Shown: piece after piece, positions 24,930-39,340 of the stretch
Position numbering within the stretch: the stretch's first letter is position 1
Layout: every line of letters begins with the position of its first letter
Assembly: GCF_019048865.1 (NCBI RefSeq)
Contig: NZ_CP077604.1
Location: 3,782,001-3,846,000, forward strand
DNA from: Aquihabitans sp. G128
GTDB taxonomy: Bacteria; Actinomycetota; Acidimicrobiia; Acidimicrobiales; Iamiaceae
DNA: 64,000 nucleotides
Direction: 5' to 3'
Program-made: the position numbers and the translations under genes
Notes under the pieces: generated by a model
Databases searched by the model: none
The model's input: the letters and a program-made list of their open reading frames with translations, nothing else
What the model was told of the DNA's origin: nothing

Positions 24930-26812
24930 GTGTGCGGGATCACCGGGATGCTGGTCCGAGACGGGATCGACGACGTCGACCGTGGCGAGGTCGCGGCCCT
25001 GACCGCGCTGATGGCGAGGCGCGGGCCGGACGACCGGGGGCAGTGGGACGACGGCTCGTGCGCGCTCGGGTTCCGACGCCTGTCGGTGATCGACCTGACC
25101 GAAGCGGGCCACCAGCCCATGGCGACGCCGGACGGCTCCCACGTCCTGGTGTTCAACGGCGAGATCTACAACCACCGGGAGCTGCGGCGCGAGCTGGAGG
25201 CGGAGGGGTGCCGGTTCCGCTCGAGGTCCGACACCGAGGTGGTGCTGCTGGCCCTGGCCACCTGGGGACGCGACGCCCTCGCCCGGTTCAACGGCATGTT
25301 CGCCCTCGCCTGGTACCGGCCTGCGGAGCGCGCCTTGCTGCTGGCGCGGGACCCGGTCGGCATCAAGCCGCTCTCGTGGTGGTGGTCACCCGAGGCGTTC
25401 GTGTTCGGGTCGCAGTACGACCAGGTGGTCCGCCACCGGCGCTGCGAGCGCAGCCGGGTCGACGACGACGTGCTCGGCCTCTACCTGCGGCTCGGCTTCG
25501 TGCCCCCGCCGTACGGCCTCATCCGTGGCACCGGCCAGGTCGAGGCCGGCCACTGGCTCGAGGTGCTGCCCGGTCGGGCGCCGCAGACCGGCTGCTTCCG
25601 CAGCCTCGCCGAGGCGCCCCCGCCGGCCGAGCGCCTGCGGGGCCGAGCGGCCGACGAGGCGGTGGCCGAGGCGGTGGACGCCGCGGTCGCTCGCCAGCTC
25701 GTCAGCGACGTGCCCGTCGGGGTGTTCCTGTCCGGGGGGATCGACTCGCCGCTCGTGGCCTCGGCCATGGTCCGGGCCACGGCCGATCCGGTCCAGGCGT
25801 TCTCGATCGGCACGGACGACCCCGCCATGGACGAGTCGGCGGCGGCGCGGGCCTACGCCGAGGTGCTCGGCGTGGAGCAGGAGCTGCGGACCATCCGCGG
25901 CGAGGACGCGCTCGGCCTGCTCGACGACGTCGCCCACGCCTACCCCGAGCCGTTCGGGGACTACTCGTCGTTCCCCACGCTGCTCGTCTCCCAGCTCGCC
26001 GCCGAGCACGTGAAGGTCGTGCTCTCGGGCGACGGCGGCGACGAGCTCTTCTGGGGGTACCCGCGCTTCGCCAAGGTGCGGCGGGCGCGCCGGTGGTTCG
26101 GGCTTCCCACCGCGGCGAGGTACGGCGCCTACGCGGCGTCGAAGCCGCTCCCCACCCATCGCCGACCCGCCCGCGGCATCCTCTTCCCCACGCTCGGCGA
26201 CTGGTACCTCGATGCCCACTCGGGGGTCCGCGACGCCGACCTGGAGCAGTTCGCGCCCCAGCTCGCCGGCCTCCCGCCGGGCTTCGACCGCTTCGACCTG
26301 GCGGGCCTGCCGAGCGACGACGAGCTGCTGCAGTGGGTCCGGCGCAACGAGCTCGGGTGCCACCTGCCCATGGTCCTGCAGAAGGTCGACCGGGCCAGCA
26401 TGTTCCACGGCCTCGAGGTGCGGGTGCCGCTGCTCGACCTGGAGGTGGCCGACCTGGCGGCGAGGGTCGACCCGACCGCCGCGCTGCAGGGCGCCACCGG
26501 CAAGGTGGTCCTGCGTCGGGCGCTGGCCCGCCACGTGCCCCCCCCGATCGGATCCCGCTGGCCAAGAAGGGCTTCACCGTCCCGCTCGGCCGCTGGCTGC
26601 GCGAAGACCTGCGCCCCGTGGTGGAGGATCGGCTCCTCGGGCCCGACGCCTTCCCCGGCGGGGCCTTCGACCGCGCGGCGCTGCGCAGCTGGTACCAGGA
26701 GCACCTCGATGGCCGCGACCGCACGCGGGGGCTCTGGAACCTGCTCGCCCTGCAGCTCTGGGCCGACGTCCACTGCCGGCCGCTCGCTTCCACGCCGATG
26801 GGGCCGGCGTGA
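24930..26812 (+). CDS. Asparagine-synthase-like glutamine amidotransferase (one frame break)
   Basis: About 627 residues, AsnB family. The GTG initiator is followed directly by Cys2, the glutaminase nucleophile (M-CGITGM), then ARRGPDDRG and FNGEIYNH. The synthetase half has the ATP-binding SGGIDS and SGDGGDELFWGYPRF. A C8 run at 26538-26545 breaks the frame; the tail resumes DRIPLAKKGFTVPLGRWL. In polysaccharide clusters such proteins are thought to amidate uronic acid carboxyl groups or other glycan acids, not to make free asparagine. The uronic-acid pathway just upstream supports that inference. A second family member lies at 62865. Confidence 0.88.
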
Positions 26813-28037
26813 GGCGCGTGACCCTGGTGGTGAACCGCCACGACGCCGTCTCGGAGACCTTCCAGCGCGCCCTGGCCACGATGCTCGCCGAGGGCGGCCA
26901 CCAGGTCACCGTGCACGCGCTGCGGCCCGGTCCGGCGACCGCGCTCGACGGCGTGGCCACCTCGTGCGGCCTGCCGCCGCTGCGGGCCGGGAGCCTGCTG
27001 CCGTTGGCGGTGCGGGCGGCAGGGGGTCGCCAGCCCGGCCTCGCCGTGGCGGCTCGTCGAGCGCGCCCGGTTCGGCGCCACGGAGCGGGCGGCACGGGCC
27101 GCCCTCGCGGCCGGACCGATCCTCGGCACCGAGCCCGACGTCGTGCACCTCGGGTTCAGCGGCCTCGGCGTGGCGCTGGCCGACGCCCTCGACCTGCTGG
27201 AGGAGACCCAGCTGGTGGTGAGCTGCCGAGGCACCGACGAGCTGGTCCGGCCGCTGCTCGACCCCGATCGGGCCACCGGCCTGGCTCGCCTCGTCCAGCG
27301 GGTGGATCGCGTCCACGTGGTGGCGACGGCGGTCGGCGATGCGGTGGTGGCGCTCGGTGCCGACCCCGGCGCGGTGCGGGTCATCCGCCCGGCGGTCGAC
27401 CTCGAAGCGGTGGCCGGTGCGCGCGCCTCGCGCTCCCGGCGTCCCGCTGCGCCTGGTGGTCGTGGCCCGGCTGCAGCCCGCAAAGGGGATCGAGGACGCG
27501 CTGGCCGCGCTGGCCATCGTCCGGGCCGGCGGCACCGACGCCCGGCTGCGCATCGTGGGCGACGGCCCCCACCGGGACGCGCTGCGGCTGCGGGTGGCCC
27601 GCACCGGTCTGGGCGACCACGTCGACCTCGTCGGACCGCTGGCACCGGAGGCCGTGCGCGCCGAGCTGGCCGCCGCCGACGCCTTCGTCTCACCCAGCCT
27701 CTCCGAAGGGATCAGCAACGGCGTGCTGGAGGCGATGGCCACCGGTGTGGCGGTGATCAGCACCGAGGTGGGTGGGATGGCCGAGGTGGTCACCGACGGC
27801 GTCGACGGGCGCCTCGTCCCCGCCGGGCGCCCCGACCGGCTGGCGGCGGCGCTGCTGGAGGTGCTGGGCGACGAGGGGGCGAGGCGAGACCTGGCGGCCG
27901 CGGGGCGGGAGCGGGTGGAGGCCGCCTTCGGGCGCTCCCGCCAGCGGGCGGAGTGGCTGGCGGTCTACGACGAGCTGGCGATGGAAGCCCGGCGGAGCGC
28001 ATCTTCTAGCGTGGACCGCTCGGAGGGGACCACATGA
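26809..28037 (+). CDS. GT4-family glycosyltransferase (two frame breaks)
   Basis: About 409 residues. GTG overlaps the amidotransferase stop. N-terminus VTLVVNRHDAVSETFQRALA; breaks near 27045-27052 (into WRLVERARFGATERAARA) and 27418-27440 (into GVPLRLVVVARLQPAKGIED). The donor domain has PSLSEGISNGVLEAMATGVA and STEVGGMAEVVTDG. Ends in an ATGA overlap with the ABC exporter. Sugar specificity unknown. Confidence 0.85.
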
Positions 28038-29825
28038 TGAAGCGTTCTGGTGCACCACGGCGCCCCAAGGGGATCGGCCTGGTCGAGATCTACCGGCCGT
28101 ACTTCGCCGGCGAGGGCCGTTCGATCGTGGCCCAGGCCGCGGCGGCCTTCCTCGGCGGCATGTCCGAGGCCCTGCTGCTGGTCGTCATCGCCCGGCTGGC
28201 CTTCACCATCGGAGGCGACGCCGCCCCGTCGATCGGCATCGGCCCGCTCGACGGCATCAAGGTCAGCATCGGCACCCTCTTCGTGGTGGCCGTGGTGCTG
28301 GGGTCGCTGCGGTTCGCCATGCAGACCGTCTCGGCCCAGCTCAGCTCGCGGCAGACGGCGCGGCTCACCGTGCGCCTGCGGGCCGAGACGTTCCACGACT
28401 ACGCCCTGGCTTCCTGGGCGGCTCAGTCGGAGATCGACGAAGCGGCGGTGCAGGACCTCGTCATCCGCCGGGTGGGCCGCCTGGCCGGCGCCATCATCGT
28501 GGTGTCGGGCTCGTTCACCACCACCTTCGGGCTCCTGGCGCTGTTGGCCTCGGCCATCGCCATCGATCCGCTCTCGGCCGTGCTGGTGGTGGCCACCGGA
28601 TCCGGCCTGTTCCTGGCCCTGCGCCCGCTCAGCAAGCTGGCCAAGCGCCACTCGGGCAGCCAGGTCGCCGCCGGCCTCAAGTTCGCCAAGGAGTCGCTGG
28701 AGGCGATCAACGTCAGCCTCGAGATCCGAGCGTTCGGCGTGAACGCCCAGGTGGCGCAACGGCTGGACGAGTCCACCCGCGAGGAAGCCCGCTCGATCTA
28801 CGTGACCACGTTCCTCGCCCGCTTCCTGGGCGCGGCCTACCAGCTCGCGGCGGTCGCCATCGTCCTGGTGGGGCTCTACGCCGTCCACGCCGTGATCGAT
28901 CGGCCGCTGGCCTCGCTGAGCGCCATCGTGGTGATCCTGGTGCGGTCGATGAACCTGGCCAGCACCCTGCAGGGCTCGTACCACTCCGCCGCCGAGTCGG
29001 CGCCGTACGCCGAGACGCTGAGCAGCGACCGCGCCGGCCTCCGGGCCTCCACGCCGACGTCCGGCTCCGTGGCCACGCCCCGCCACCCGGAGCTGCGCTT
29101 CGACGACGTGTCGTACCGCTACCAGTCCGAAGCCGACGCACCGAACGCGCTTCGAGGGGGTGTCGTTCACCATCGCCCCGGGCGAGGCCATCGGCATCAT
29201 CGGGCCCTCCGGCAGCGGCAAGTCGACCCTCATCCAGCTCATCCTCCGCCTGCGCGAGCCGTCCTCGGGGCGCTACCTCGTCGACGGCATCGAGGCCGGC
29301 GAGCTCGAGGACGACGCCTGGTTCCGCGAGGTCGCCTTCGTCCCCCAGGACTGCCGGGTGATCAGCGCGTCGATCCGCGACAACATCCGCTTCTTCCGCC
29401 CGCACCTCACCGACGACGAGGTCGTGGAGGCAGCCAAGCGGGCCCACGTCCACGAGGAGATCGTGGCCATGCCCGAGGGCTACGACACCGTGCTCAGCAG
29501 CCGTGGCGGCGGTCTCTCGGGCGGGCAGCGCCAGCGCGTGGCGCTGGCCCGGGCGCTGGCCACCACGCCGAGCATCCTCGTGCTCGACGAGCCCACCAGC
29601 GCCCTCGACATGCGCAGCGAGGCCCTCGTCCACGAGACGCTCACCAAGCTGCAGGGCTCGGTCACGCTGCTGGTGATCGCCCACCGCCTCTCGACGCTCA
29701 AGACCTGCGACCGGATCATGGTGTTCGGCGCCGGCGAGCTCCAGGCGTTCGGCGACCGGGCCACGCTCGAGACCGAGAACGAGTTCTACCGATCGGCCAT
29801 CGAGCTGTCGAGGCTGCGGTCGTGA
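28034..29825 (+). CDS. ABC-type exporter, fused membrane and ATPase domains (one frame break)
   Basis: About 596 residues, MsbA/PglK-like half-transporter. Five or six N-terminal membrane segments, for example LLLVVIARLAF, IGTLFVVAVVLGSLRF, LLALLASAIAI and LAAVAIVLVGLYAV. The ATPase has Walker A GPSGSGKST, Q-loop FVPQD, signature LSGGQRQRVA, Walker B ILVLDEP and the H-loop IAHRL. A break near 29145-29160, just before the ATPase (FEGVSFTIAPGEA), equals one extra base. In this context it likely flips a polyprenyl-linked oligosaccharide, an alternative to a Wzx flippase, which is not seen in the window. ATG with GGAGGGG upstream. Confidence 0.9.
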
Positions 29826-30580
29826 TCGTGCGGCGGCGGGCGGTCCGCGAGGGCACCGCGGTGCACTGGCGGTTCCGGCCCCGGCCGGGCAGCGACTACG
29901 TGGCCAGCGGCTTCGCGCTCGGAGCGGTCATCGACCTCGTCGAGCGCCGGCGGCCGGCGTCCATCCTCGAGGTGGGAGCCGGCATCGGCACCCTGACCAC
30001 GGCGGTGGCGGAAGCCGCCATCCGGGTCGGGCTCGAGCCGTCCCAGGTGGCGGTCGAGGAGATCGACTTCTGCCTCGAGCAGCTCGACGCCAACCTCGGG
30101 TCGCTGGGCGACCGTGTGCGCATCGTCCGGCGGGCGGCCGACGTCCCCGCCGAGGTCGCGCCGTACGAGCTCGTGGTGATCGACGGCGGAGCCACCACCG
30201 ACCTCCTGCCCGAGGACCAGCCGGGCTGGACCGCGCAGGACGAGCGCGCCGAGGTGGCGGCGTGGATCGGCCGGCTCGCACCGGGGGCGATCGTGGTGGT
30301 CGAGAACGAGCGGGCGCCGCAGCGCTCCCACATCGAGGCCGAGGCCACCCGCCCGTACCGCCACGAGCACGTGCGTCCGGTGGACGGCAGCCCGGGGCTC
30401 CACCTCTACCAGTTCGACCCGACGCCGGGGCTGCAGGCTCGGGCCCGCGTGCGCGACGCGGTCCGGGCCCTCTGGTTCCCGAGGGGCCTGCGGCTCCTGC
30501 GGCGGGCGCACCTCGTGGTGCTGCGCCGTTCGGGCCCGGATCGGGCTGCCGTGGCGCCGGGCGGCGACAGCGGGGCCTGA
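29822..30580 (+). CDS. Class I SAM-dependent methyltransferase-like protein
   Basis: 252 residues, unbroken, GTGA-coupled to the exporter. Motif I is ILEVGAGIGTLTTAVAEAA, followed by VAVEEIDFCLEQLDANL (acidic residue position), VRIVRRAADVP and ELVVIDGGATTD. The shape suggests an O-methyltransferase-type fold acting on a small or glycan substrate. Last gene of the 19.0-30.6 kb plus-strand operon. Substrate unknown. Confidence 0.7.
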   Translation: MIVRRRAVREGTAVHWRFRPRPGSDYVASGFALGAVIDLVERRRPASILEVGAGIGTLTTAVAEAAIRVGLEPSQVAVEEIDFCLEQLDANLGSLGDRVRIVRRAADVPAEVAPYELVVIDGGATTDLLPEDQPGWTAQDERAEVAAWIGRLAPGAIVVVENERAPQRSHIEAEATRPYRHEHVRPVDGSPGLHLYQFDPTPGLQARARVRDAVRALWFPRGLRLLRRAHLVVLRRSGPDRAAVAPGGDSGA

Positions 30581-30602: not shown

Positions 30603-31370
30603 GCCGTGGGGCCGGTCGAGGTGCCAGAAGCGGTCGTCGTCGCCGGAGAGCGCGGCGTGGCGGTGCAGGTCCGGGGTGAACCGGTCCGTCCACAGGTCCT
30701 CGGTCACGTCGACCCCGGCCCCGCGCCAGCGGTCGAGCAGGTCGGCGCCGTAGATGCGGACGTGGTCCGACTGCCCGTAGAGCCGCTCGTAGTCGGCCGG
30801 GTCGGCGCCCTCGACCTCGAAGGTGTCCGGGCGGGCGTCATCCCGGGGGACCACGACGAGGACCTCGCCGTCCGGGGCGGTGATGCGCACGAGCTCGCGC
30901 ACGGCGGCGCGGTCGTCCGGGACGTGCTCGAGCACGTGGAAGCAGACCACGAGGTCGAAGCTGGCCTCGCCGAAGGGCAGGGCGGTGAGGTCGCCGAGCA
31001 CGCGGGCCCGGGGCGAGGAGAGGTCGAGGCTGGTGTAGGTGTAGCCCAGCTGGACGGCGAGCGGCTCGACGGTGTGGATCGGCGCGACCTCGAGGAGCCG
31101 GGTGCCGGGGGGCACCGGTCCCCGGCGGTTCAGGGCGATGGCGAGCGCGCGATAGCGCTCGCTCGAGCCGCAGGAGGGGCAGATCCGGTTCGGCCGGCGC
31201 GGCTTGGTGGAGGACTCGAAGCGCTGGCCGGACCACCCGCACACGGGGCAGCGCACGCGGTCGCCGACCGCGAGCAGCCGGACGTGGGCCTGGCGGCTGA
31301 GCCGCCGCTTCCGGCGCCGGAGGGCCGACAGGGCGCGGTCGACGTCGACGCGGCGATCGGGGCGAACCAT
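30597..31370 (-). CDS. Type-11 methyltransferase with N-terminal zinc ribbon
   Basis: 257 residues. Residues about 30-75 contain two CxxC pairs (RCPVCGWSG ... ICPSCGSSERYRAL), a treble-clef or zinc-ribbon module. The remainder is a class I methyltransferase: RLLEVAPIHTVEPLA, SLDLSSPRARVLGDLTALPF, then DLVVCFHVLEHVPDD and DGEVLVVVPRD. Start chosen at ATG 31370, whose A overlaps the TGA of the preceding minus-strand gene (TGATG); a second in-frame ATG exists at 31379. Coupled to the CBS-NeuB fusion, so a role in methylating a nonulosonic acid or its glycan is plausible but unproven. Confidence 0.83.
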   Translation of the reverse strand: MVRPDRRVDVDRALSALRRRKRRLSRQAHVRLLAVGDRVRCPVCGWSGQRFESSTKPRRPNRICPSCGSSERYRALAIALNRRGPVPPGTRLLEVAPIHTVEPLAVQLGYTYTSLDLSSPRARVLGDLTALPFGEASFDLVVCFHVLEHVPDDRAAVRELVRITAPDGEVLVVVPRDDARPDTFEVEGADPADYERLYGQSDHVRIYGADLLDRWRGAGVDVTEDLWTDRFTPDLHRHAALSGDDDRFWHLDRPHGA

Positions 31371-33607
31371 CAGAACCATGCCTCCAGGCGATCGAGGGCC
31401 ATCCAGAACCCTTCTCCGTCGTTCTTGTGGCCCTGCCAGATCTCGGGGATGAACGCCACCCCCGGTGCCAGGCGGTCGAGCTGCTCGGCCAGCACGGGCC
31501 AGTCGATGTCGCCGTCGCCGACCTGGATCCCCTCGCCGTCGGAGCCGGTGGCGTCGACGAGGTGCAGGTGGCGCACGTGCGGCCCCAGCGTCTCGACGAA
31601 CGTGGCGAAGGAGGTCCCGCGGTGGTTGCACGCCAGCTTGGAGTGCGACACGTCGAGGCACAGCCCGATGTCGGCGTCGCGGGCGAAGCGGGCGGTGTCC
31701 TCGGGATCGACGAACAGGTTGCAGTGGAGCTGGCCGCCCAGGTACCACGGGAACGGCGGCAAGGTCTGGGCGACGAGCTCGACGCCGGTGCGGTCGAGGC
31801 GATCGAGGCCGGCTCGGACCCGGTCGTAGCGGGCCTGGCGCTCGGTGGCGGCGAGGGGCGCGTCGGCGGTGAAGCCGCCCAGGCTCACGATCACCGTGGG
31901 GCGCTCGGTGCTGGGGAACAGCGGCTTCATCCGGCGGGTCAGCTCGAGGCACCGGTCGAGCTCGAAGATCGAGCGCTCCCACCACTCGTCGTCGGTCGAG
32001 GCCAGGTTGAGGATGTGGTCCCCGCGGAACAGGTCCGGGCTGTGGACCGCGAAGTCACAGGTCTGCGGGCCCTTGACGTAGGTCTCGGGGTCGAGGTCCA
32101 TGTCCTGGTACGACAGGTGGAACTCCACGAAGTCGGGCGCGGCCCGCTGGAGCATGGCGTCGAAGTCGTGGTAGCGGACCGGCAGGCCCCAGGGGCGGCG
32201 GAACGCATAGGGCCGGGGCTCGACCCGGTCGGCGTCGAGGTCCGACGGGTAGAAGCAGGTGCCCGCCGCCACCGAGCGGGTGAGCACGTGGCCGATCAGG
32301 TCGTTGCGGCGGTTGGGCTGGAGGCCCCGGCCCGGGCCCTGGACGGCGATGTCGGAGCGGGTGACCGTGGCTCCGGCGGCCAGGTCCCGCACGGCCACGA
32401 GGCTCTTCGCCAACGTCACGCGGTTCATGGCCTCGCCCTGGCTGATCGAGCGGCTGCGGGGGGAGCCGAGCGACTCCTCCAGCTGGCGGACCTCGGTGAC
32501 CATGCGGGCCAGCTCGTCCGGCAGCAGGCTGACCTTGTGGTCGTTGCCCTCCATGGAGCGGTCGACGGTGAGGTGCTTCTCGATGATGCGGGCGCCGAGG
32601 GCGACCGAGGCCACCGGCACGTGCCAGCCCCGCTCGTGGCCGCTGTAGCCCACCGGGCAGGCGCCGAGCTGGCGGAGGCGCTCGAGGTACCGGAGGTTCA
32701 CGTCCTTGTAGGGCGCCGGATAGGTCGAGTTGCAGTGCAGCAGGGCGTAGGCCGCGCCGTGCTGCTGGAGCACCGCGACGGCCTCGCGGATCTCGGCCTC
32801 GGTGGACATGCCGGTGGACACCAGCACCGGCTTGCCGGTGGCCGCCACCGCGGCGACGAGGTCGTGGTTCGTGAGGTCCGCCGAGGCCACCTTGTAGCCC
32901 GGGATCCCGTAGCCCTCCAGCACGGCCACGCTCTCGTGGTCCCACGGCGTGCACAGCGGGACCAGGCCCCGGCTCCGGCAGTGGTCGAAGGCGGTGAACA
33001 TCTCGTCGTTGGTGAGCTGGAACTTGTCGAGCAGCTCCCGCGTGTACTGCGAGCCGAGGTCCTCGCCGGCCCGGTCGCTGGCGCCGTAGAGCGAGCCGAG
33101 GTCGCGGAGCTGGAACTTGGCGCTGTCGGCACCGGCATCGGCGGCGTGGTCGATGAGGGCGAGGGCGGTCGCCAGCGAACCGTTGTGGTTGATGCCGATC
33201 TCGGCGATCACGAACGTCGGCTGGTCCTCGCCGATGGTGCGGCCATCGAGCTCCAGGCGGCCGGTCCGCGACGACGCGACCCCCACGAGGTGGCCCTGGT
33301 CGTCGACGAGGGGGATGTGGGCGATGCGGTCGTCGAGGAGGCCCTCCAGCTCCGCGGGGCCGGCCGACGCGGGCGCGGTCCGCGGCGACCGGTTGGCGAT
33401 GTCGCGCACCGGTCGGTGCAGGTCGAGGTCGGCCTGGTCGACCACCCAGCGGCGGAAGTCGCCGTCGGTGAGCACGCCGACGAGGCGGCCGTCGGGCTCG
33501 ACGCAGAACACCGCACCGTGGCGGTTCGCCGAGATCTGGGCCAGGGCGTCCAGCACCGGGGCGTCGGCGGCGCACGACCAGGAACGGAGGTCTCGGGCGA
33601 TGATCAT
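31370..33607 (-). CDS. CBS pair - NeuB synthase - SAF - TIM-barrel fusion
   Basis: 745 residues, unbroken. Residues 1-120: CBS pair (GRLVGVLTDGDFRRW ... HIPLVDDQGHLVG), a nucleotide-sensing module. 130-380: NeuB family, condensing phosphoenolpyruvate with a hexosamine to give a nonulosonic acid; IAEIGINHNGS, KFQLRDL, HCNSTYPAPYKD, GYSGHE and IIEKHLTVDRSMEGNDHK are all present. 395-460: SAF/antifreeze-like domain (KSLVAVRDLAAGATVTRSDI). 480-745: sugar-phosphate isomerase / endonuclease-IV-type TIM barrel (VEFHLSYQDMDLD, GLCLDVSHSKLACN, GDGDIDW). Start at ATG 33607 gives MIIARDLRSW. A possible -10 (TAGGGT on the minus strand) lies about 110 bp upstream. The added TIM barrel may make or epimerise the substrate; the CBS pair may regulate flux. 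Confidence 0.93.
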   Translation of the reverse strand: MIIARDLRSWSCAADAPVLDALAQISANRHGAVFCVEPDGRLVGVLTDGDFRRWVVDQADLDLHRPVRDIANRSPRTAPASAGPAELEGLLDDRIAHIPLVDDQGHLVGVASSRTGRLELDGRTIGEDQPTFVIAEIGINHNGSLATALALIDHAADAGADSAKFQLRDLGSLYGASDRAGEDLGSQYTRELLDKFQLTNDEMFTAFDHCRSRGLVPLCTPWDHESVAVLEGYGIPGYKVASADLTNHDLVAAVAATGKPVLVSTGMSTEAEIREAVAVLQQHGAAYALLHCNSTYPAPYKDVNLRYLERLRQLGACPVGYSGHERGWHVPVASVALGARIIEKHLTVDRSMEGNDHKVSLLPDELARMVTEVRQLEESLGSPRSRSISQGEAMNRVTLAKSLVAVRDLAAGATVTRSDIAVQGPGRGLQPNRRNDLIGHVLTRSVAAGTCFYPSDLDADRVEPRPYAFRRPWGLPVRYHDFDAMLQRAAPDFVEFHLSYQDMDLDPETYVKGPQTCDFAVHSPDLFRGDHILNLASTDDEWWERSIFELDRCLELTRRMKPLFPSTERPTVIVSLGGFTADAPLAATERQARYDRVRAGLDRLDRTGVELVAQTLPPFPWYLGGQLHCNLFVDPEDTARFARDADIGLCLDVSHSKLACNHRGTSFATFVETLGPHVRHLHLVDATGSDGEGIQVGDGDIDWPVLAEQLDRLAPGVAFIPEIWQGHKNDGEGFWMALDRLEAWF

Positions 33608-33782: not shown

Positions 33783-34700
33783 ATGACCACACCAGGGCCG
33801 GCACCGGCGTGGCTCGCCGGCCTCGAGGCCCAGGGCATGTCGACCACGTGGTCGCCGGCTGGCCACTGCTGGGTGCGCTTCAAGCGGGTCGCGCACCTCC
33901 GCTACCCCACGAACGACCTCGCGCCGCTCGGGGCCGACGAGCGACGGGCGCTGCTGTGGCGCCGTCGCATGGCCGTCCTGCAGTACCACGAGCCGGCGGG
34001 CATCGAGCGGGCCAACGCCTCCCTCTACCTCTGCACCACGCGGGACTACGGCATCGACGTGCTGAGCAGCAACAACCGCTCGAAGGTGCGGCGGGGCCTC
34101 AAGCGCTTCGAGGTGCGCGAGACCTCGGCCGCCGAGGTCCTGGCCGCCGGCTACCCCAGCTACGCCGACACCCGGGCCCGCCACGGCTCCGGGGCCATGA
34201 CGCCCGAGCAGTTCCGGGCGAACTGGGAGCGCCAGCTCGAGGTGCCGGGACGGGAGATCTGGGCCGCCTGGGCGGGCGCGGAGATCGCCGCGTTCGGCAC
34301 CGTGCACCGCTGCGGGCGGTGGGCGTCGATCAGCGCCACCGTCTCCGACCGCGCCCACCTGCGGGACTACCCCAACCACGCCCTGTTCTTCACGATGCTC
34401 GAGCACCTGATGGCCGACCCGTCGGTGGAGAGCGTCTCCTACGGCCTCAGCTCGCTGCGCGCCGAGACGGCTCGGGAGTCGCTGCACAGCTTCAAGGTCA
34501 GCATCGGGCTCGAAGCCGTACCGGTCGTGCGCAAGGTGGTCCTGCACCCCCTCCTGCGCCCGGCCGTGAACCACGGTTCGCTGGCCGTGGCCGGCGCGGC
34601 GGCCCGGCGGGCCCCGGAGGCGAGGCTGCCGAAGGCCGCGCGGGCGGCGCTCGAGTTCCTGCTGGAGCCCGACGCCGACGGCGCGGACGACGCACCGTGA
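33783..34700 (+). CDS. FemAB/GNAT-fold acyltransferase-like protein
   Basis: 305 residues, unbroken, ATG start. The segment NNRSKVRRGLKRFEVRE resembles the region of peptidoglycan-bridge FemAB and BioF2-like GNAT proteins that precedes the acceptor fold. Later, EIAAFGTVHRCGRWASISAT and NHALFFTMLEHLMAD match the C-terminal GNAT half. Such proteins in polysaccharide clusters transfer amino acids or acyl groups to amino sugars. Divergent from the NeuB fusion and coupled by GTGA to a second GNAT, so N-acylation of a nonulosonic acid or amino sugar is a reasonable inference. Confidence 0.65.
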   Translation: MTTPGPAPAWLAGLEAQGMSTTWSPAGHCWVRFKRVAHLRYPTNDLAPLGADERRALLWRRRMAVLQYHEPAGIERANASLYLCTTRDYGIDVLSSNNRSKVRRGLKRFEVRETSAAEVLAAGYPSYADTRARHGSGAMTPEQFRANWERQLEVPGREIWAAWAGAEIAAFGTVHRCGRWASISATVSDRAHLRDYPNHALFFTMLEHLMADPSVESVSYGLSSLRAETARESLHSFKVSIGLEAVPVVRKVVLHPLLRPAVNHGSLAVAGAAARRAPEARLPKAARAALEFLLEPDADGADDAP

Positions 34701-35375
34701 CCGGGCCCGGCGCCGCGGGCGCCGGAGCCCGATCGGCCTCCCCGCAGGACGTGCCGCGGGTGGCCGAGCTCCACCGAGCCGTCTTCCCCGAGTACCAGAG
34801 CAGCCAGCTCGGACCGGCCTTCTGTCGGAGGCTGGTGGCCCGCTACCTGGCCGATCCGGCCACCGACGTCCTCGTGGTCGACGGGCCCTCGGGCCCGGTG
34901 GGCTACCTCGTGGGTGGACCGCCGTCGGTCCAGCGCCGCACCAACGATGCCCTCGCGCCCTGGGCGGTGCTCGCCGCAGCTGCTCGCGCCGCCCGATCCC
35001 CGAAGCGCGCTGCGGGGCGCCGGGCCGGCCTGGCGCCGGGCCCGACGGGTGCTGGGCTCGCTGGCTGGTCGAGCTCGAGGGCGGGTCGAGCCGCCGGCCC
35101 CGCCGTCGGTCGGAGCACCCGACGCAGAGGTCGAGGCCGACACCCGCGTGGTCCTCGTCGGCGTGGCGCTCGAGGCCCGCGGCGCCGGTGCGGTCGATGC
35201 GCTGCTGGGGGAGTTCGCCCGCCGCTCGGTGCAGCGGGGCCACCGCCGGGCCGACCTGCTGGTGGTCGCCGACAACCCGGCTGCCCTCCGGGCCTACGAG
35301 CGCAACGGCTGGCGGGACGGCGGCGCTGCGGGCGCCGGCACCGTGCGCTACCTGCTCGACCTCGCGCCGGGCTGA
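34697..35375 (+). CDS. GNAT N-acetyltransferase (one frame break)
   Basis: About 225 residues. GTG overlaps the stop of the preceding gene. N-terminal SPQDVPRVAELHRAVFPEY is a typical GNAT opening. A break near 34975-35000 leads into RRARRVLGSLAGRARGR, then VLVGVALEARGAGAVDALLG (acetyl-CoA loop region) and VVADNPAALRAYERNGWR (helix 4 and Tyr). Probably acetylates an amino group on a sugar made by the adjacent NeuB/CMP-sugar genes. Confidence 0.8.
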
Positions 35376-35401
35376 CCCGACGAGGGTGCCGTCAGCCCGG
35401 C
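35366..35401. terminator. Bidirectional hairpin containing both stop codons
   Basis: GCCGGGCTGAC / GTCAGCCCGGC, perfect 11-bp stem with a 14-nt loop. The TGA of the GNAT gene and the TCA of the opposing cytidylyltransferase gene lie in opposite arms. Confidence 0.7.
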
Positions 35402-36105
35402 TGGCGGCCGTGGAGCCGGGCGATCGCCCGCTCGGCAGGGTCCAGGTCCTCCGGTCGATCGATGTCGACGCCGCCGCCTGGCGTCTCGAAGGCGATCATC
35501 CGGGCGCCCGACATCGAGCCGGCGACCACCACGGGAGCGCGGACGACGTCGATCACCCCGTCGTGGACCCATGCCGGGGGCAGCGCTTGGCGAGGCTCGT
35601 TGAAGCGCTCGGCCTCGAGGGTGCCCAGCAGCGGGCGCAGCAGGCCCTCGGCGTCGATCTCGTAGGTCTTCCACGGGGTGATCGGCGCCGGGCTCACCGA
35701 GCGCACGGAGGTGGCCGACGGGTCGGCGCGCAGCGCGGCGACCGCCTGGTCGACGAGGCCGGGCGGCCGGGCCGGCGACGTGGGCCGGAGGTGCACGACC
35801 AGGCTCGGCTGGTCGCCGCCCGAGGCCTCGATCCAGGAGAGCGCGTGCTGGAACACGGGCAGGTCGGTGACCAGGTCCCCGGCGAGCTCGGCGGGCCGGA
35901 GGAACGGCACCTCGGCGCCGAGCTGGCGCGCCGTGGCAGCGATCTCCTCGTCATCGGTCGAGACGATGACCCGGTCGACCGCTGGCGCGGCCAGCGCGGC
36001 ATCGATGGACCAGGCGATCAGGGGGCGACCGCCCACGAGGACCAGGTTCTTGCGGGGGATCCCGACGCTGCCGCCGCGCGCCGGGATGAGGGCGAGGACG
36101 CTCAC
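35392..36105 (-). CDS. CMP-nonulosonic acid synthetase (NeuA/PseF-like cytidylyltransferase)
   Basis: 237 residues. Uses CTP to activate a nonulosonic acid as a CMP-sugar for glycosyltransfer. The start SVLALIPARGGSVGIPRKNL is the diagnostic nucleotide-binding loop; ISTDDEEI-type VIVSTDDEEIAATARQLGAE, HLRPTSPARPPGLVDQAV and the C-terminal GGGVDIDRPEDL follow. GTG at 36105 is taken as the start. The frame is open upstream into the polymerase gene, but this probably reflects an extra G in the G6 run at 36151-36156; removing it ends that gene at a TGA overlapping this GTG, as elsewhere. Functional partner of the NeuB fusion 1.8 kb away. Confidence 0.9.
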   Translation of the reverse strand: MSVLALIPARGGSVGIPRKNLVLVGGRPLIAWSIDAALAAPAVDRVIVSTDDEEIAATARQLGAEVPFLRPAELAGDLVTDLPVFQHALSWIEASGGDQPSLVVHLRPTSPARPPGLVDQAVAALRADPSATSVRSVSPAPITPWKTYEIDAEGLLRPLLGTLEAERFNEPRQALPPAWVHDGVIDVVRAPVVVAGSMSGARMIAFETPGGGVDIDRPEDLDPAERAIARLHGRQPG

Positions 36106-37596
36106 CGGGCCACGGCGGCCAGGGGGATCGGTGCCGGCGGCGAGCTCATCGGGGGGCGCGCCCGGACGGGCATCCGGACCGACCACGCGGATGAAGGCGA
36201 AGGCGAAGGCGATGGGGATCGCGACCACCCGCATGTTGGCGTAGAACATCTGCGCCACGCCCCAGGCCAGGAAGGTGACGCAGGTGGCGCGCGAGGTCCC
36301 CGACCGCCGGTAGGCCTGCAGCGAGAGGGCTGCGAACACCACGATCGAGCCCAGCCCGGCCAGCCCGTGCTCGCTCAGCATCCGGGTGAACTCGGTGTGC
36401 GAGGAGCCCTCGTTGGCGCACTTGTCCGTGCGCAGCTGGCACAGGTCGTAGGGCAGGCGGGAGTACCGGCTCATGCCCGGGCCCACGCCGAACGCGAGGT
36501 GGGACTTGAAGATCTCGACGTCGTTGGTGGCGAGGCCGGTGCGCCCCGACGACGTGTCCTCGAAGCGCTCCTTGAACTTGCCGTCGGTGAAGGCGTCGAG
36601 GCGCGGGACGATCAGGTAGTAGCCGACCGCGAAGGCGACGCCCACCACCAGGATCACCTTCCGTCGACCGTCGCGGCTGGTGGACTGGGCGATCACCAGC
36701 GCGCCGAGGGCGATGGCCGTGGCGAACATGCCGCCTCGGCTGAAGGTCAGCAGGCTCTGCACGGTGGCGAGGAACGCCAGGCCAGCGGCCATGATCCGGG
36801 CCACCAGGTCGACCTCGTTGAGGAACAGGAGGATGGCGGCGAGGACGGTGAGGCCCATCACCGACGACACCTGCACCGGTCCGAAGCCACCGCTGGTGAT
36901 GAAGTTCGACTCGCTGCCGAACTCGATCGAGCCCTGGGTGGCGATGGTGTCGTTGATGGCCGTGAGGGCGATCGCCAGCGGGCCGACGCCGCCGATGGCC
37001 AGGATCCAGAGCAGGCGGCGGTAGAACCACGGCTGGATGGCCATGGGGGAGAGCAGCAGGACCATGGCGGTCAGGGCCGCCGGACCGGCCAGGGCGAAGG
37101 CCACCGGCTGGCGGAACGAGCCGCCGCCGACCGTGGACACCGTGACGACGATGGAGGGGAGCAGGAGGGCGAAGTAGAACATCGCCGTCCGCCCGGGCTT
37201 GGCGATCGTGCGCACCACCGTGAAGGAGGTGGCGACGGCGAGGATCATCGTGAGGTAGGCCGCCGTGTACTGCGGCACGGGTGCTCGGGTCTGGCGCCAC
37301 ACGATCTCCGCGCCCGGCAGGTAGGCGATGATCGACAGCGACAGCAGGGGGTTGCGGCGCAGCACCGCCCACCCGCCCAAGGCCAGCAGGCCGGCCGCCT
37401 GGACGAGGCCGAGGCGGGGTGACTGGCTCATGGCCCGGGCCAGGGCGGCCTGGGCCAGCATGAGGCCGAGGAGGAGCATCCACCGGGGGATGGCCAGCTT
37501 CCGGCGGTGCTCGGCGAAGGTGAGCACCTCGCCGGCGCGCGGCCCGGCGGTCCGGAGGTCGGTGGCGGAGGTCCCCGTCACCGGGACGAGGTCCAC
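36102..37596 (-). CDS. O-antigen polymerase/ligase-like membrane protein (probable frame error at 3' end)
   Basis: About 497 residues with roughly 10-12 hydrophobic segments (for example RWMLLLGLMLAQAALARAM, MFYFALLLPSIVVTVST, LTVLAAILLFLNEVDL, VILVVGVAFAVGYYLIV). The large periplasmic loop has the Wzy/WaaL-type SSHTEFTRMLSEHGLAGL motif (PF04932). Likely polymerises or ligates undecaprenyl-linked repeat units outside the membrane. GTG start 1 bp after the kinase stop. The expected C-terminus, after correcting the G6 run at 36151-36156, is VVGPDARPGAPPMSSPPAPI followed by a short tail and TGA. Confidence 0.87.
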
Positions 37597-37597
37597 C

Positions 37598-39340
37598 TCA
37601 GCGACGGTCCTGGATCGGCTCTCGCTCTGCGGCAGGCGGATCCTCCGGAAGGTGGTCGAAGTCGGCCACCGGGACGTCGGCGGCCTGGCGGTGGAGGAAC
37701 CGGCCGATGATCGGCATCCGCGACCGGCGGACGTAGCCGTAGTACTCGTAGAGCGAGCCGTAGGTGTCCTCGGCGGCCACGCCGTTGAGGACGGTCCCGA
37801 GCAGCGGGGAGGAGACCTGGCGCAGCATCTCGACGCCGCGGCGGGCGGTGCGCCGGCTGGTGCGGTTGGCCGAGGCCAGGAAGATGGTGGCGTCGACGAC
37901 GCGGCTCAGCACCAGGGCATCGGTGACCGGCAGCACCGGCGGGCAGTCGAGGAAGACCACCGAGTACTCCTCGGTGAGCGAGCGGATGATGCTGGCCGAG
38001 CGGTCCAGGCTCAGCAGCTCCGACGGGTTCGGGGGCCGGGGGCCGGAGGCCAGCACGCTGATGTTGGGGTGGATCGGCGACTGCTGCACCGCCTCGGCGA
38101 GCGTGAGGTCGCCGAGGACCACGGAGGTGAAGCCGATGCTGCCGTCGACCTGCATGAACTGGTGCAAGCGGGGCTTGCGGAGGTCGCAGCCCACCACGCA
38201 CACCCGCTTGCCGGCCTGGGCGAAGGCCAGGGCCAGGTTCGACAGCAGGGTGGTCTTGCCCTCGCCGGCACCGGAGCTGGTGATCTGGATCAGGTTCATG
38301 GGCCGCTCGAGCGCGGCGTACTGGATGGCCGTGCGGAGGCCTCGATAGGACTCGGCCGCCGCCGACATGGGGGCGGCGATGGTGGCGAGGTGGGGCCGGC
38401 GGGCATCTCGCCACGTGGGGTCGAGGGGGACCATGCCGATGGTGGGCAGGTCCTTGACCGCTCGCTCGAGGTCGGCCTTCGTGCGCAGCGAGTCGTCGAA
38501 CTGGTCTCGGACGAACGCGAGGCCCACGCCCAGGAACAGCCCGATCACGAGGGACTGGACGGCGTCGCGCACCGGCGTCGGCGAGACCGGCGTGCTCGGG
38601 GCGACGGCCGGGTTCAGCACCTGGACGCCGCCGGTGGTGGCCAGGCGCTCCGAGATCTGCAGGATCTGCAGCCGCTGGGTGTAGTCGGTGAGGCCGGCCT
38701 GGGCCTCGGCCCGCTCGGCGTCGGTCTGGGACTTCAACCGGTTCCGCGCCTCCAGCTTGGCGTCGTAGGCGGGGTCGGTGGTGGGCAGCTTCGCCAGCTC
38801 GTCGTCGAGCGCCACCAGGGGTTCGTCGATCTTGTTGATCTGGGCCTGGAAGTCGTCGACCTGCTGCTGGACGATGGTCTTGGTGGACGAGAGGTCGGCG
38901 AGGATCGCATCGAGCCGCACGTCTTGGTAGGTGCTGGCGTAGACGTTGGCCCGGCGGGCGGCCTCCCGGCCGGTGGTGGCCGTGGCCTGCAGGACGATGA
39001 CGTCGTCCTCGCCGCCGGCGATGGCCCGCACCCCGATCGGGGAGCCGTAGGCCTTGGCCACGGCGACCTTGACCGTCCGGCTGTTGATGATGCGCAGCTC
39101 GTTCTGGAGCGCCCGCTGCGGGTCCGAGACCTGCTGGGTCGGCACCAGGATGTTCTCCGACGTCTTGGCCTGGAGCAGCATCTGGGTGGACGCCTGGTAC
39201 TGCGGTGCGGCCCGGAGGTCGGTGAGCAGGGAGAGCCCGACGAGGACGACGACGGTGCCGGCGATCCACAGCCAGCGGCGCCGCAGCACCTCGAGGTACT
39301 CCCCGATGCTGACCTCAGTGGTGTCTTGTACCGAGTACAT
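37598..39340 (-). CDS. Wzc-like chain-length regulator / BY-kinase
   Basis: 580 residues, unbroken. N-terminal Wzz domain with the first membrane segment LWIAGTVVVLVGLSLL, a periplasmic coiled region (about residues 60-230), a second membrane segment DAVQSLVIGLFLGVGLAFV, then a cytoplasmic ATPase: Walker A SSGAGEGKTT, Walker A' VVGCDLRKPRLH, Walker B VVFLDCPP. A tyrosine cluster SLYEYYGYVRRS lies near residue 545, followed by about 35 residues, so autophosphorylation is possible. Controls polymer length and export with the neighbouring polymerase. ATG start. An inverted-repeat-rich gap of 57 bp lies upstream. Confidence 0.93.
   Translation of the reverse strand: MYSVQDTTEVSIGEYLEVLRRRWLWIAGTVVVLVGLSLLTDLRAAPQYQASTQMLLQAKTSENILVPTQQVSDPQRALQNELRIINSRTVKVAVAKAYGSPIGVRAIAGGEDDVIVLQATATTGREAARRANVYASTYQDVRLDAILADLSSTKTIVQQQVDDFQAQINKIDEPLVALDDELAKLPTTDPAYDAKLEARNRLKSQTDAERAEAQAGLTDYTQRLQILQISERLATTGGVQVLNPAVAPSTPVSPTPVRDAVQSLVIGLFLGVGLAFVRDQFDDSLRTKADLERAVKDLPTIGMVPLDPTWRDARRPHLATIAAPMSAAAESYRGLRTAIQYAALERPMNLIQITSSGAGEGKTTLLSNLALAFAQAGKRVCVVGCDLRKPRLHQFMQVDGSIGFTSVVLGDLTLAEAVQQSPIHPNISVLASGPRPPNPSELLSLDRSASIIRSLTEEYSVVFLDCPPVLPVTDALVLSRVVDATIFLASANRTSRRTARRGVEMLRQVSSPLLGTVLNGVAAEDTYGSLYEYYGYVRRSRMPIIGRFLHRQAADVPVADFDHLPEDPPAAEREPIQDRR

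Follow-up and report, generated by a model that had tools for sequence, protein, structure and literature searches.

Capsules containing 2-keto-3-deoxynononic acid (KDN) are described as uncommon in bacteria, and in the Serratia marcescens capsule, where KDN is the main sialic acid and the ratio of N-acetylneuraminic acid (Neu5Ac) to KDN is about 1:20, deletion of neuB lowered sialic acid fourfold and abolished the capsule (PMC9000132). The Serratia product was identified as authentic KDN by high-performance anion-exchange chromatography with pulsed amperometric detection (HPAEC-PAD) against a KDN standard and also by gas chromatography-mass spectrometry (GC-MS), and its neuB is a 2241-bp frame adjoining neuA whose COG1082 domain the authors call "not typically observed" among other characterized synthases (PMC9000132). 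A second Serratia neuB mutant was used in a later paper (PMC12077157), and the excerpted text of two further papers describes no such fusion (PMC7371886, PMC6371046). The gene analyzed here lies on the minus strand of a 64,000-nucleotide stretch of the Aquihabitans sp. G128 chromosome (hereafter the window; NZ_CP077604.1, positions 3,782,001 to 3,846,000) and encodes a fusion of a CBS pair, a NeuB synthase domain, an SAF domain and a TIM barrel of the AP_endonuc_2 type. Among the open-licence papers listed as matches, none besides the Serratia work deals with a NeuB joined to a barrel of this type, and none deals with the CBS pair of the fusion.

The window protein resembles S. marcescens KL1/KL2 NeuB in joining NeuB to a COG1082 barrel within about 746 aa, with a CMP-sugar synthetase nearby and in a polysaccharide locus. 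The likeness is drawn from the published description, in which the term "CBS domain" does not occur (PMC9000132). S. marcescens is gammaproteobacterial and its neuA is adjacent, whereas the window gene is 1.8 kb from neuA, with two GNAT-type sequences between. A Serratia proteamaculans relative in our set (L050) has 746 codons plus a stop, giving the same 2241 bp, and starts at most 7 bases from a neuA-type gene. Neisseria meningitidis NeuB (1xuu, 4ipi, 4ipj) shares the NeuB-SAF core (TM-score 0.82 by target length) and its catalytic residues, but has neither the CBS pair nor the barrel, and three of its residues, Arg314, Asn184 (Ser in the fusion) and Phe288, are not kept in the window protein. 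Campylobacter jejuni PseI (8h2c), which acts on a diacetamido substrate, has the same NeuB-SAF fold at about 31% identity; it keeps an Arg at the Arg314 position and has no extra modules. The CBS pair is most similar to that of the KdsD/GutQ/KpsF proteins, with which it has a TDGD-x-RR motif in common, although there the pair is joined to a sugar-phosphate isomerase and here to NeuB.

A four-module reading frame and its distribution

The features of the fusion gene and its protein are as follows.

31370..33607, minus strand: four-module fusion coding sequence, 745 aa, with ATG at 33607 and a stop codon ending at 31370
33272..33577, minus strand: CBS pair, residues 11-112 (Pfam CBS)
33446..33469, minus strand: TDGDFRRW motif, residues 47-54 (alignment A1, 64 rows)
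32453..33217, minus strand: NeuB PEP-condensing barrel, residues ~131-385 (Pfam and alignment to 1xuu)
32237..32407, minus strand: SAF (antifreeze-like) domain, residues 401-457 (Pfam)
32336..32338, minus strand: Gly424, aligned with Neisseria NeuB Arg314, an N-acetyl contact
31373..32212, minus strand: C-terminal AP_endonuc_2-type TIM barrel, residues 466-745 (Pfam, AlphaFold2, Foldseek)
31766..31768, minus strand: Gln614 at the end of strand 5, Gln in 81/81 sequences where related enzymes have Glu

The initial annotation had placed an unbroken 745-residue frame at 31370-33607; the coordinates are correct, and the strand, which it did not state, is the minus strand. The plus strand is likewise open over this interval, but the gene is the minus-strand frame, as shown by its full-length relatives and by its GC at the three codon positions (0.72/0.46/0.97, with GC3 of 0.97). 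An in-frame GTG is also open 96 bases upstream of the ATG, and the ATG start is supported by the near invariance of M1 among the 64 rows of alignment A1. Translation and Pfam bear out the four modules that the annotation had proposed, all of them above gathering cut-offs and in the order CBS (two stretches, the best at residues 11-56 with 50.8 bits), NeuB (PF03102, residues 151-382, 267.9 bits), SAF (residues 401-457, 34.1 bits) and AP_endonuc_2 (PF01261, residues 520-727, 68.6 bits for the whole protein against a cut-off of 31.1). The GDGDIDW motif reported for the C-terminal barrel is present at residues 697-703. The model of the full-length fusion has a predicted TM-score (pTM) of 0.72.

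A pattern scan of GTDB genomes returned 134 candidate stretches and 118 confirmed relatives, of which the best 80 were kept. The order from CBS to barrel is complete in 78 of these 80, at 46-59% identity; of the others, L058 is truncated at residue 691 by the end of its contig and L074 has no CBS pair. Given this collinearity, a hidden indel joining separate genes into the fusion frame, which the initial annotation had named as a possible objection, is very unlikely. The relatives carry nine phylum labels, the most numerous being Cyanobacteriota (26 rows), Pseudomonadota (25) and Actinomycetota (15), with carriers that include cyanobacteria, Nitrosomonas, Sinomonas, Kocuria and Phycicoccus. 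A tree of 79 rows mostly clusters by phylum and sets the window protein beside the 15 Actinomycetota rows with a support of 99.

Within sampled groups the occurrence of the fusion is patchy. Of 198 genomes from the window's order, 4 (its own counted) had full fusions, as did 14 of 242 cyanobacterial genomes (counting the centre genome, a known carrier), where two more partial or divergent matches were seen; the single carriers among 296 genomes of the window's phylum and 198 of the Serratia family are the window's own genome and the centre genome, respectively. Stand-alone relatives of the barrel, which would be its Rosetta-stone partner, were not found in the three genome samples from the window's phylum, the cyanobacteria and the Serratia family. 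In the phylum sample only the window gene reached a family-level barrel score (457 bits), the hits in 20 other genomes remaining below 35 bits. The cyanobacterial sample gave 14 full-length barrel matches, every one in a frame of at least 749 aa, a partial match (L107) in a 547-aa frame that covers only the first 85 barrel positions, and the CBS-less L108. The Serratia-family sample yielded a barrel match in its centre genome only. A blastn search against E. coli gave no match; 5 phage records matched, none with 80% query coverage, and 103 plasmid records matched, one of them with at least 80% coverage. The view that the architecture is unusual is therefore not upheld, since it is widespread and a matching Serratia protein has been studied genetically. 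This counts in part against the initial annotation, which had named a common and already characterized architecture as grounds for refutation. The fusion belongs to a kind that has been described but little studied, and is not rare.

The NeuB-SAF active site and the acceptor sugar

Sixteen positions of Neisseria NeuB, 14 in the NeuB barrel and two in SAF, were mapped onto 81 sequences, comprising the window protein and the 80 relatives. In Neisseria numbering, Glu25, Lys53, Gln55, Thr110, Lys129, Tyr186, Ser213, His215, Glu234, His236 and Asp247 are invariant (81/81), and there are two conservative changes, Glu134 to Asp in 81/81 and Phe112 to Trp in 80/81. The active-site set of the NeuB superfamily (Glu25, Lys53, Lys129, His215, Glu234, His236) is thus complete in all 81 sequences, in agreement with the complete NeuB catalytic domain of the initial annotation. 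Asn184 is replaced by Ser in 80/81 and Phe288 by Asn, Thr, Val or Ile. The Arg314 position is occupied by Ser in 80 of the 81 fusions and by Gly in the window protein. In a separate alignment, all 10 ordinary NeuB/PseI comparators (nine NeuB-family proteins picked from the best 30 of the 103 plasmid matches, plus a Subdoligranulum NeuB) have Arg at this place, while the six fusions included, among them L074 and L108, two natural variants without CBS pair, have Ser or, in the window protein, Gly. In the Neisseria enzyme Arg314 positions the N-acetyl group, the R314A variant is inactive and mannose is not accepted, whereas human Neu5Ac-9-phosphate synthase accepts mannose-6-phosphate (PMC6795526).

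Thirty genomes encoding the fusion were scanned for NeuC, PseI and mannose-6-phosphate isomerase genes or domains. NeuC exceeded its cut-off in 2 of them, and PseI in 7, as separate frames of 350-544 aa. TIGR00218 (ManA) or PF01050 was over cut-off in 29 of the 30 (11 and 22 genomes, respectively), G306 being the genome with neither and the PF01050 matches of G304 (29 bits) and G305 (35.8 bits) being weak. In the window's own genome the fusion is the sole NeuB-type match and ManA is over cut-off. With the N-acetyl-binding Arg gone and NeuC in so few of these genomes, the acceptor is probably mannose or mannose-6-phosphate rather than a hexosamine, which would make the product KDN or a sugar closely related to it. 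The hexosamine substrates suggested in the initial annotation are unlikely on the same grounds. A mannose-type acceptor fits the residue, NeuC, PseI, sole-NeuB and ManA data taken together. The change at the Arg314 position across fusions and the scarcity of NeuC in their genomes are the new elements of this analysis.

The C-terminal barrel and the CBS pair

The barrel was modeled with high confidence by AlphaFold2 (residues 456-745, pLDDT 93.1, pTM 0.92). Its best Foldseek match is endonuclease IV (5zhz, TM-score 0.67), and 3wqo (MJ1311), UlaE and ketose 3-epimerases match it as well; with identities of 10-22% in the 50 matches listed, the resemblance is at the level of fold only. The strand ends carry H497, H522, Q614, D652, H682 and E722, with H655 just after, and all are invariant (81/81) except H682 and E722 (80/81 each). 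The Asp-His, His and Glu residues at strand ends are like those of AP_endonuc_2 barrels such as endonuclease IV, UlaE and 3wqo. Unlike in those barrels, a Gln (Gln614) stands for a Glu, the position aligning with a Glu of MJ1311 and with the Glu145 position of endonuclease IV, and the third-metal ligands of endonuclease IV are unmatched. Sugar and ketose 3-epimerases, such as UlaE and tagatose 3-epimerase, use two catalytic metal-binding Glu residues; the first of these is the invariant Gln of the fusion, so that the two-Glu set is incomplete. Glu722 aligns with the Glu of the UlaE IEMW motif, in an alignment that is itself weak (probability 10.9), as is that to Hyi (probability 2.2); these two alignments are informative for the C-terminal Glu and the His region at most.

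A full endonuclease IV three-metal site, at first apparent with 9/9 ligand positions, was rejected after alignment to E. coli Nfo. By the ligand numbering of the endonuclease IV site, D652, H655 and H682 align with its residues, and matching strand ends carry H522 and E722, but His109 and Asp229/His231 have no counterpart. A phosphatase function is therefore treated below as a rival only. Gln614 and these unmatched ligands speak against both a simple 3-epimerase and a simple phosphatase of the endonuclease IV kind. Across 64 rows, 42 barrel columns are invariant, roughly half being charged or polar residues, and the barrel has the look of an active enzyme rather than a scaffold, with a putative site that is conserved yet unusual and matches no nameable type. 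Most characterized proteins of this fold act as isomerase-type enzymes, and for this reason an isomerase-type role in substrate supply is the one we would rate highest. That the enzyme makes or epimerizes its own substrate, as the initial annotation suggested, is possible. A barrel acting as the only source of mannose-6-phosphate is a candidate weakened by the isomerase matches in 29 of the 30 genomes.

In the CBS pair, Gly49 and Asp50 of the TDGDFRRW motif are invariant and Asp48, Arg52, Arg53 and Trp54 are at least 90% conserved in alignment A1. Its best solved match is an arabinose-5-phosphate isomerase (4o9k, 5.7e-08), which we take to be a CMP-Kdo complex. IMP dehydrogenase CBS pairs match too, more weakly, so adenine and guanine nucleotides may be considered as ligands, AMP/ATP being only one option. 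Two natural variants retain NeuB, SAF and barrel without this module. Both begin directly at NeuB. The Janibacter protein L074 (642 aa) comes right after its own CMP-sugar synthetase, and the divergent cyanobacterial L108 (1483-3324, 613 aa) has a barrel that can still be aligned to those of the family (E 3.8e-23, 26% identity) and retains the Gln and the LPP..W..GG, LD.SH, DGEG and E.WQGH signatures. These variants fit a CBS pair that is a dispensable regulatory module. By eye, a frame in Subdoligranulum (L113, 2908-4014) shows a nucleotidyltransferase-like sequence after a CBS-like stretch with the same TDGD-x-RR motif; it adjoins an ordinary NeuB and a NeuC-like gene.

Gene neighbourhood and proposed function

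Upstream of the fusion, the following genes lie on the same strand.

35395..36105, minus strand: CMP-sugar synthetase (NeuA type), 237 aa from an in-frame GTG; CTP_transf_3, 70.3 bits
36106..37596, minus strand: Wzy_C O-antigen ligase/polymerase, sharing one open frame with the synthetase
37598..39340, minus strand: Wzz and P-loop kinase-type chain-length protein

The synthetase, 1.8 kb upstream of the fusion, scores 221 bits against a model built from the synthetases found beside relatives. Between the two lie two weak GNAT-type matches on the plus strand (22.0 bits against a cut-off of 22, and 21.5 against 20.7), so that the synthetase and the two GNAT-like genes of the initial annotation are indeed nearby. 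The Wzz/kinase, Wzy, synthetase and fusion genes, together with a methyltransferase, are grouped on the minus strand in the manner of a polysaccharide locus. Using the profile built from the relatives' own CMP-sugar synthetases, a synthetase was detected within 5 kb of the fusion in 63 of 80 loci; in the 54 loci flanked by 5 kb or more on each side, it was within 5 kb in 48 and within 300 bp in 38. Among 119 of 237 other near neighbours scanned, the 25 commonest families included glycosyltransferases, sulfotransferases, methyltransferases, pyruvyl transferases and Wzy, and included neither NeuC nor a phosphatase family.

Several sequences of the window show irregular frames. The Wzy_C and synthetase regions (35395-37596, minus strand) form one 734-aa open frame with no stop between them, which could reflect either a genuine fusion or read-through of two genes. 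On the plus strand at 24930-30580, asparagine synthase, glycosyltransferase-like and ABC transporter sequences seem to change frame along their length, which suggests assembly indels or decayed genes, and at 34700-35375 (plus strand) the N- and C-terminal parts of a GNAT acetyltransferase are seemingly in different frames.

Established features of this locus are the four modules in one frame, a NeuB whose catalytic residues are intact, the missing Arg for N-acetyl binding and a CMP-sugar synthetase partner. Our leading proposal, which could equally well prove right or wrong, is that the fusion serves the building of a capsule or cell-wall polymer as a regulated nonulosonate synthase of KDN type, in which the barrel supplies the aldose and the CBS pair senses the end product. 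NeuB-SAF would condense phosphoenolpyruvate (PEP) with a mannose-configured aldose without N-acetyl group, either mannose or mannose-6-phosphate, yielding KDN or a close relative; NeuA would turn this into CMP-KDN, the activated sugar that the Wzy/Wzz locus would polymerize. The fused barrel would work on the aldose too, its likeliest role being that of a metal-dependent enzyme of isomerase type that delivers it, and the CBS pair, which could be lost without loss of the enzyme, would tune flux as a sensor, probably of a cytidine nucleotide sugar. A number of observations weigh against this proposal. A Gln in place of Glu at a catalytic metal position speaks against the usual two-base chemistry of epimerases, and the barrel is probably not needed for making mannose-6-phosphate, since an isomerase gene or domain is found in 29 of 30 fusion genomes. 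No synthetase was found in 6 of the 54 well-flanked loci (L015, L018, L040, L053, L054, L068). A short-chain dehydrogenase/reductase (SDR) is near the fusion in 10 loci and a Gfo/Idh oxidoreductase in 9, both being near the synthetase in L028, L030, L060, L064, L066, L067, L070 and L071, five of which are Nitrosomonas; the products or final sugar of relatives with such neighbours may therefore differ. The Serratia relative that was compared, L050, shares only some 49% identity with the window protein, and no biochemistry of the barrel or CBS pair was found in the open-licence literature searched. Serratia also yields a little Neu5Ac (PMC9000132), and the site may therefore not be closed to N-acetyl sugars.

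A more ambitious and rather doubtful version of this proposal holds that the fusion is self-sufficient, a CBS-gated NeuB-SAF with a new type of barrel, in which Gln replaces the metal Glu, leading from a central hexose phosphate to free KDN. Were the barrel instead a phosphohydrolase of the endonuclease IV fold, one protein would bridge mannose-6-phosphate to KDN, NeuB making KDN-9-phosphate and the barrel dephosphorylating it for NeuA. Such a function would accord with the best Foldseek match and the residues shared with endonuclease IV, with the co-occurring mannose-6-phosphate isomerase genes, with the lack of phosphatase families among the commonest neighbours scanned and with the use of mannose-6-phosphate by human Neu5Ac-9-phosphate synthase (PMC6795526), but it is unlikely: with Gln for the bridging Glu and His109 and Asp229/His231 unmatched, the three-metal site is not conserved as such, and phosphatases elsewhere in the genome could serve. 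The variation of the clusters, seen in the SDR and Gfo/Idh genes and in the sulfotransferases, methyltransferases and pyruvyl transferases among the neighbours, would suit a barrel that alters the product or an earlier sugar by epimerization or dehydration to give a KDN isomer, which seems a little less likely again because the Serratia product matched authentic KDN by HPAEC-PAD and GC-MS (PMC9000132). An ordinary Neu5Ac, legionaminate or pseudaminate synthase fed N-acetylmannosamine or a diacetamido sugar, with incidental extra domains, is improbable. NeuB_NnaB is indeed the best NCBIfam model (301 bits), and the minor Neu5Ac of Serratia is in its favour (PMC9000132), yet the fusion falls below the curated cut-offs of the Neu5Ac synthase equivalog TIGR03569 (301.3 of 399.65 bits) and of the pseudaminic acid synthase model TIGR03586 (242.4 of 340.25 bits), Arg314 is lost and NeuC is confined to 2 of 30 genomes. 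Finally, although the canonical Glu is swapped for Gln, we give very little credence to a catalytically dead structural barrel, because of its 42 invariant columns and the persistence of many invariant residues in the divergent, CBS-less L108.

If the combination of Ser for Arg with the fused barrel marks KDN-type synthases, it would provide a sequence test for which bacteria make KDN polymers. The fusion also raises the question of what chemistry is carried out by a barrel with an invariant Gln at its metal position that is fused to a PEP-condensing enzyme. In Bacteroides, KDN is made by a synthase plus a phosphatase. Should the self-sufficient KDN synthase hold true, the fusion would represent a bacterial KDN route, present under nine phylum labels, that is distinct both from the NeuC/NeuB route to Neu5Ac and from the synthase-plus-phosphatase route of Bacteroides.

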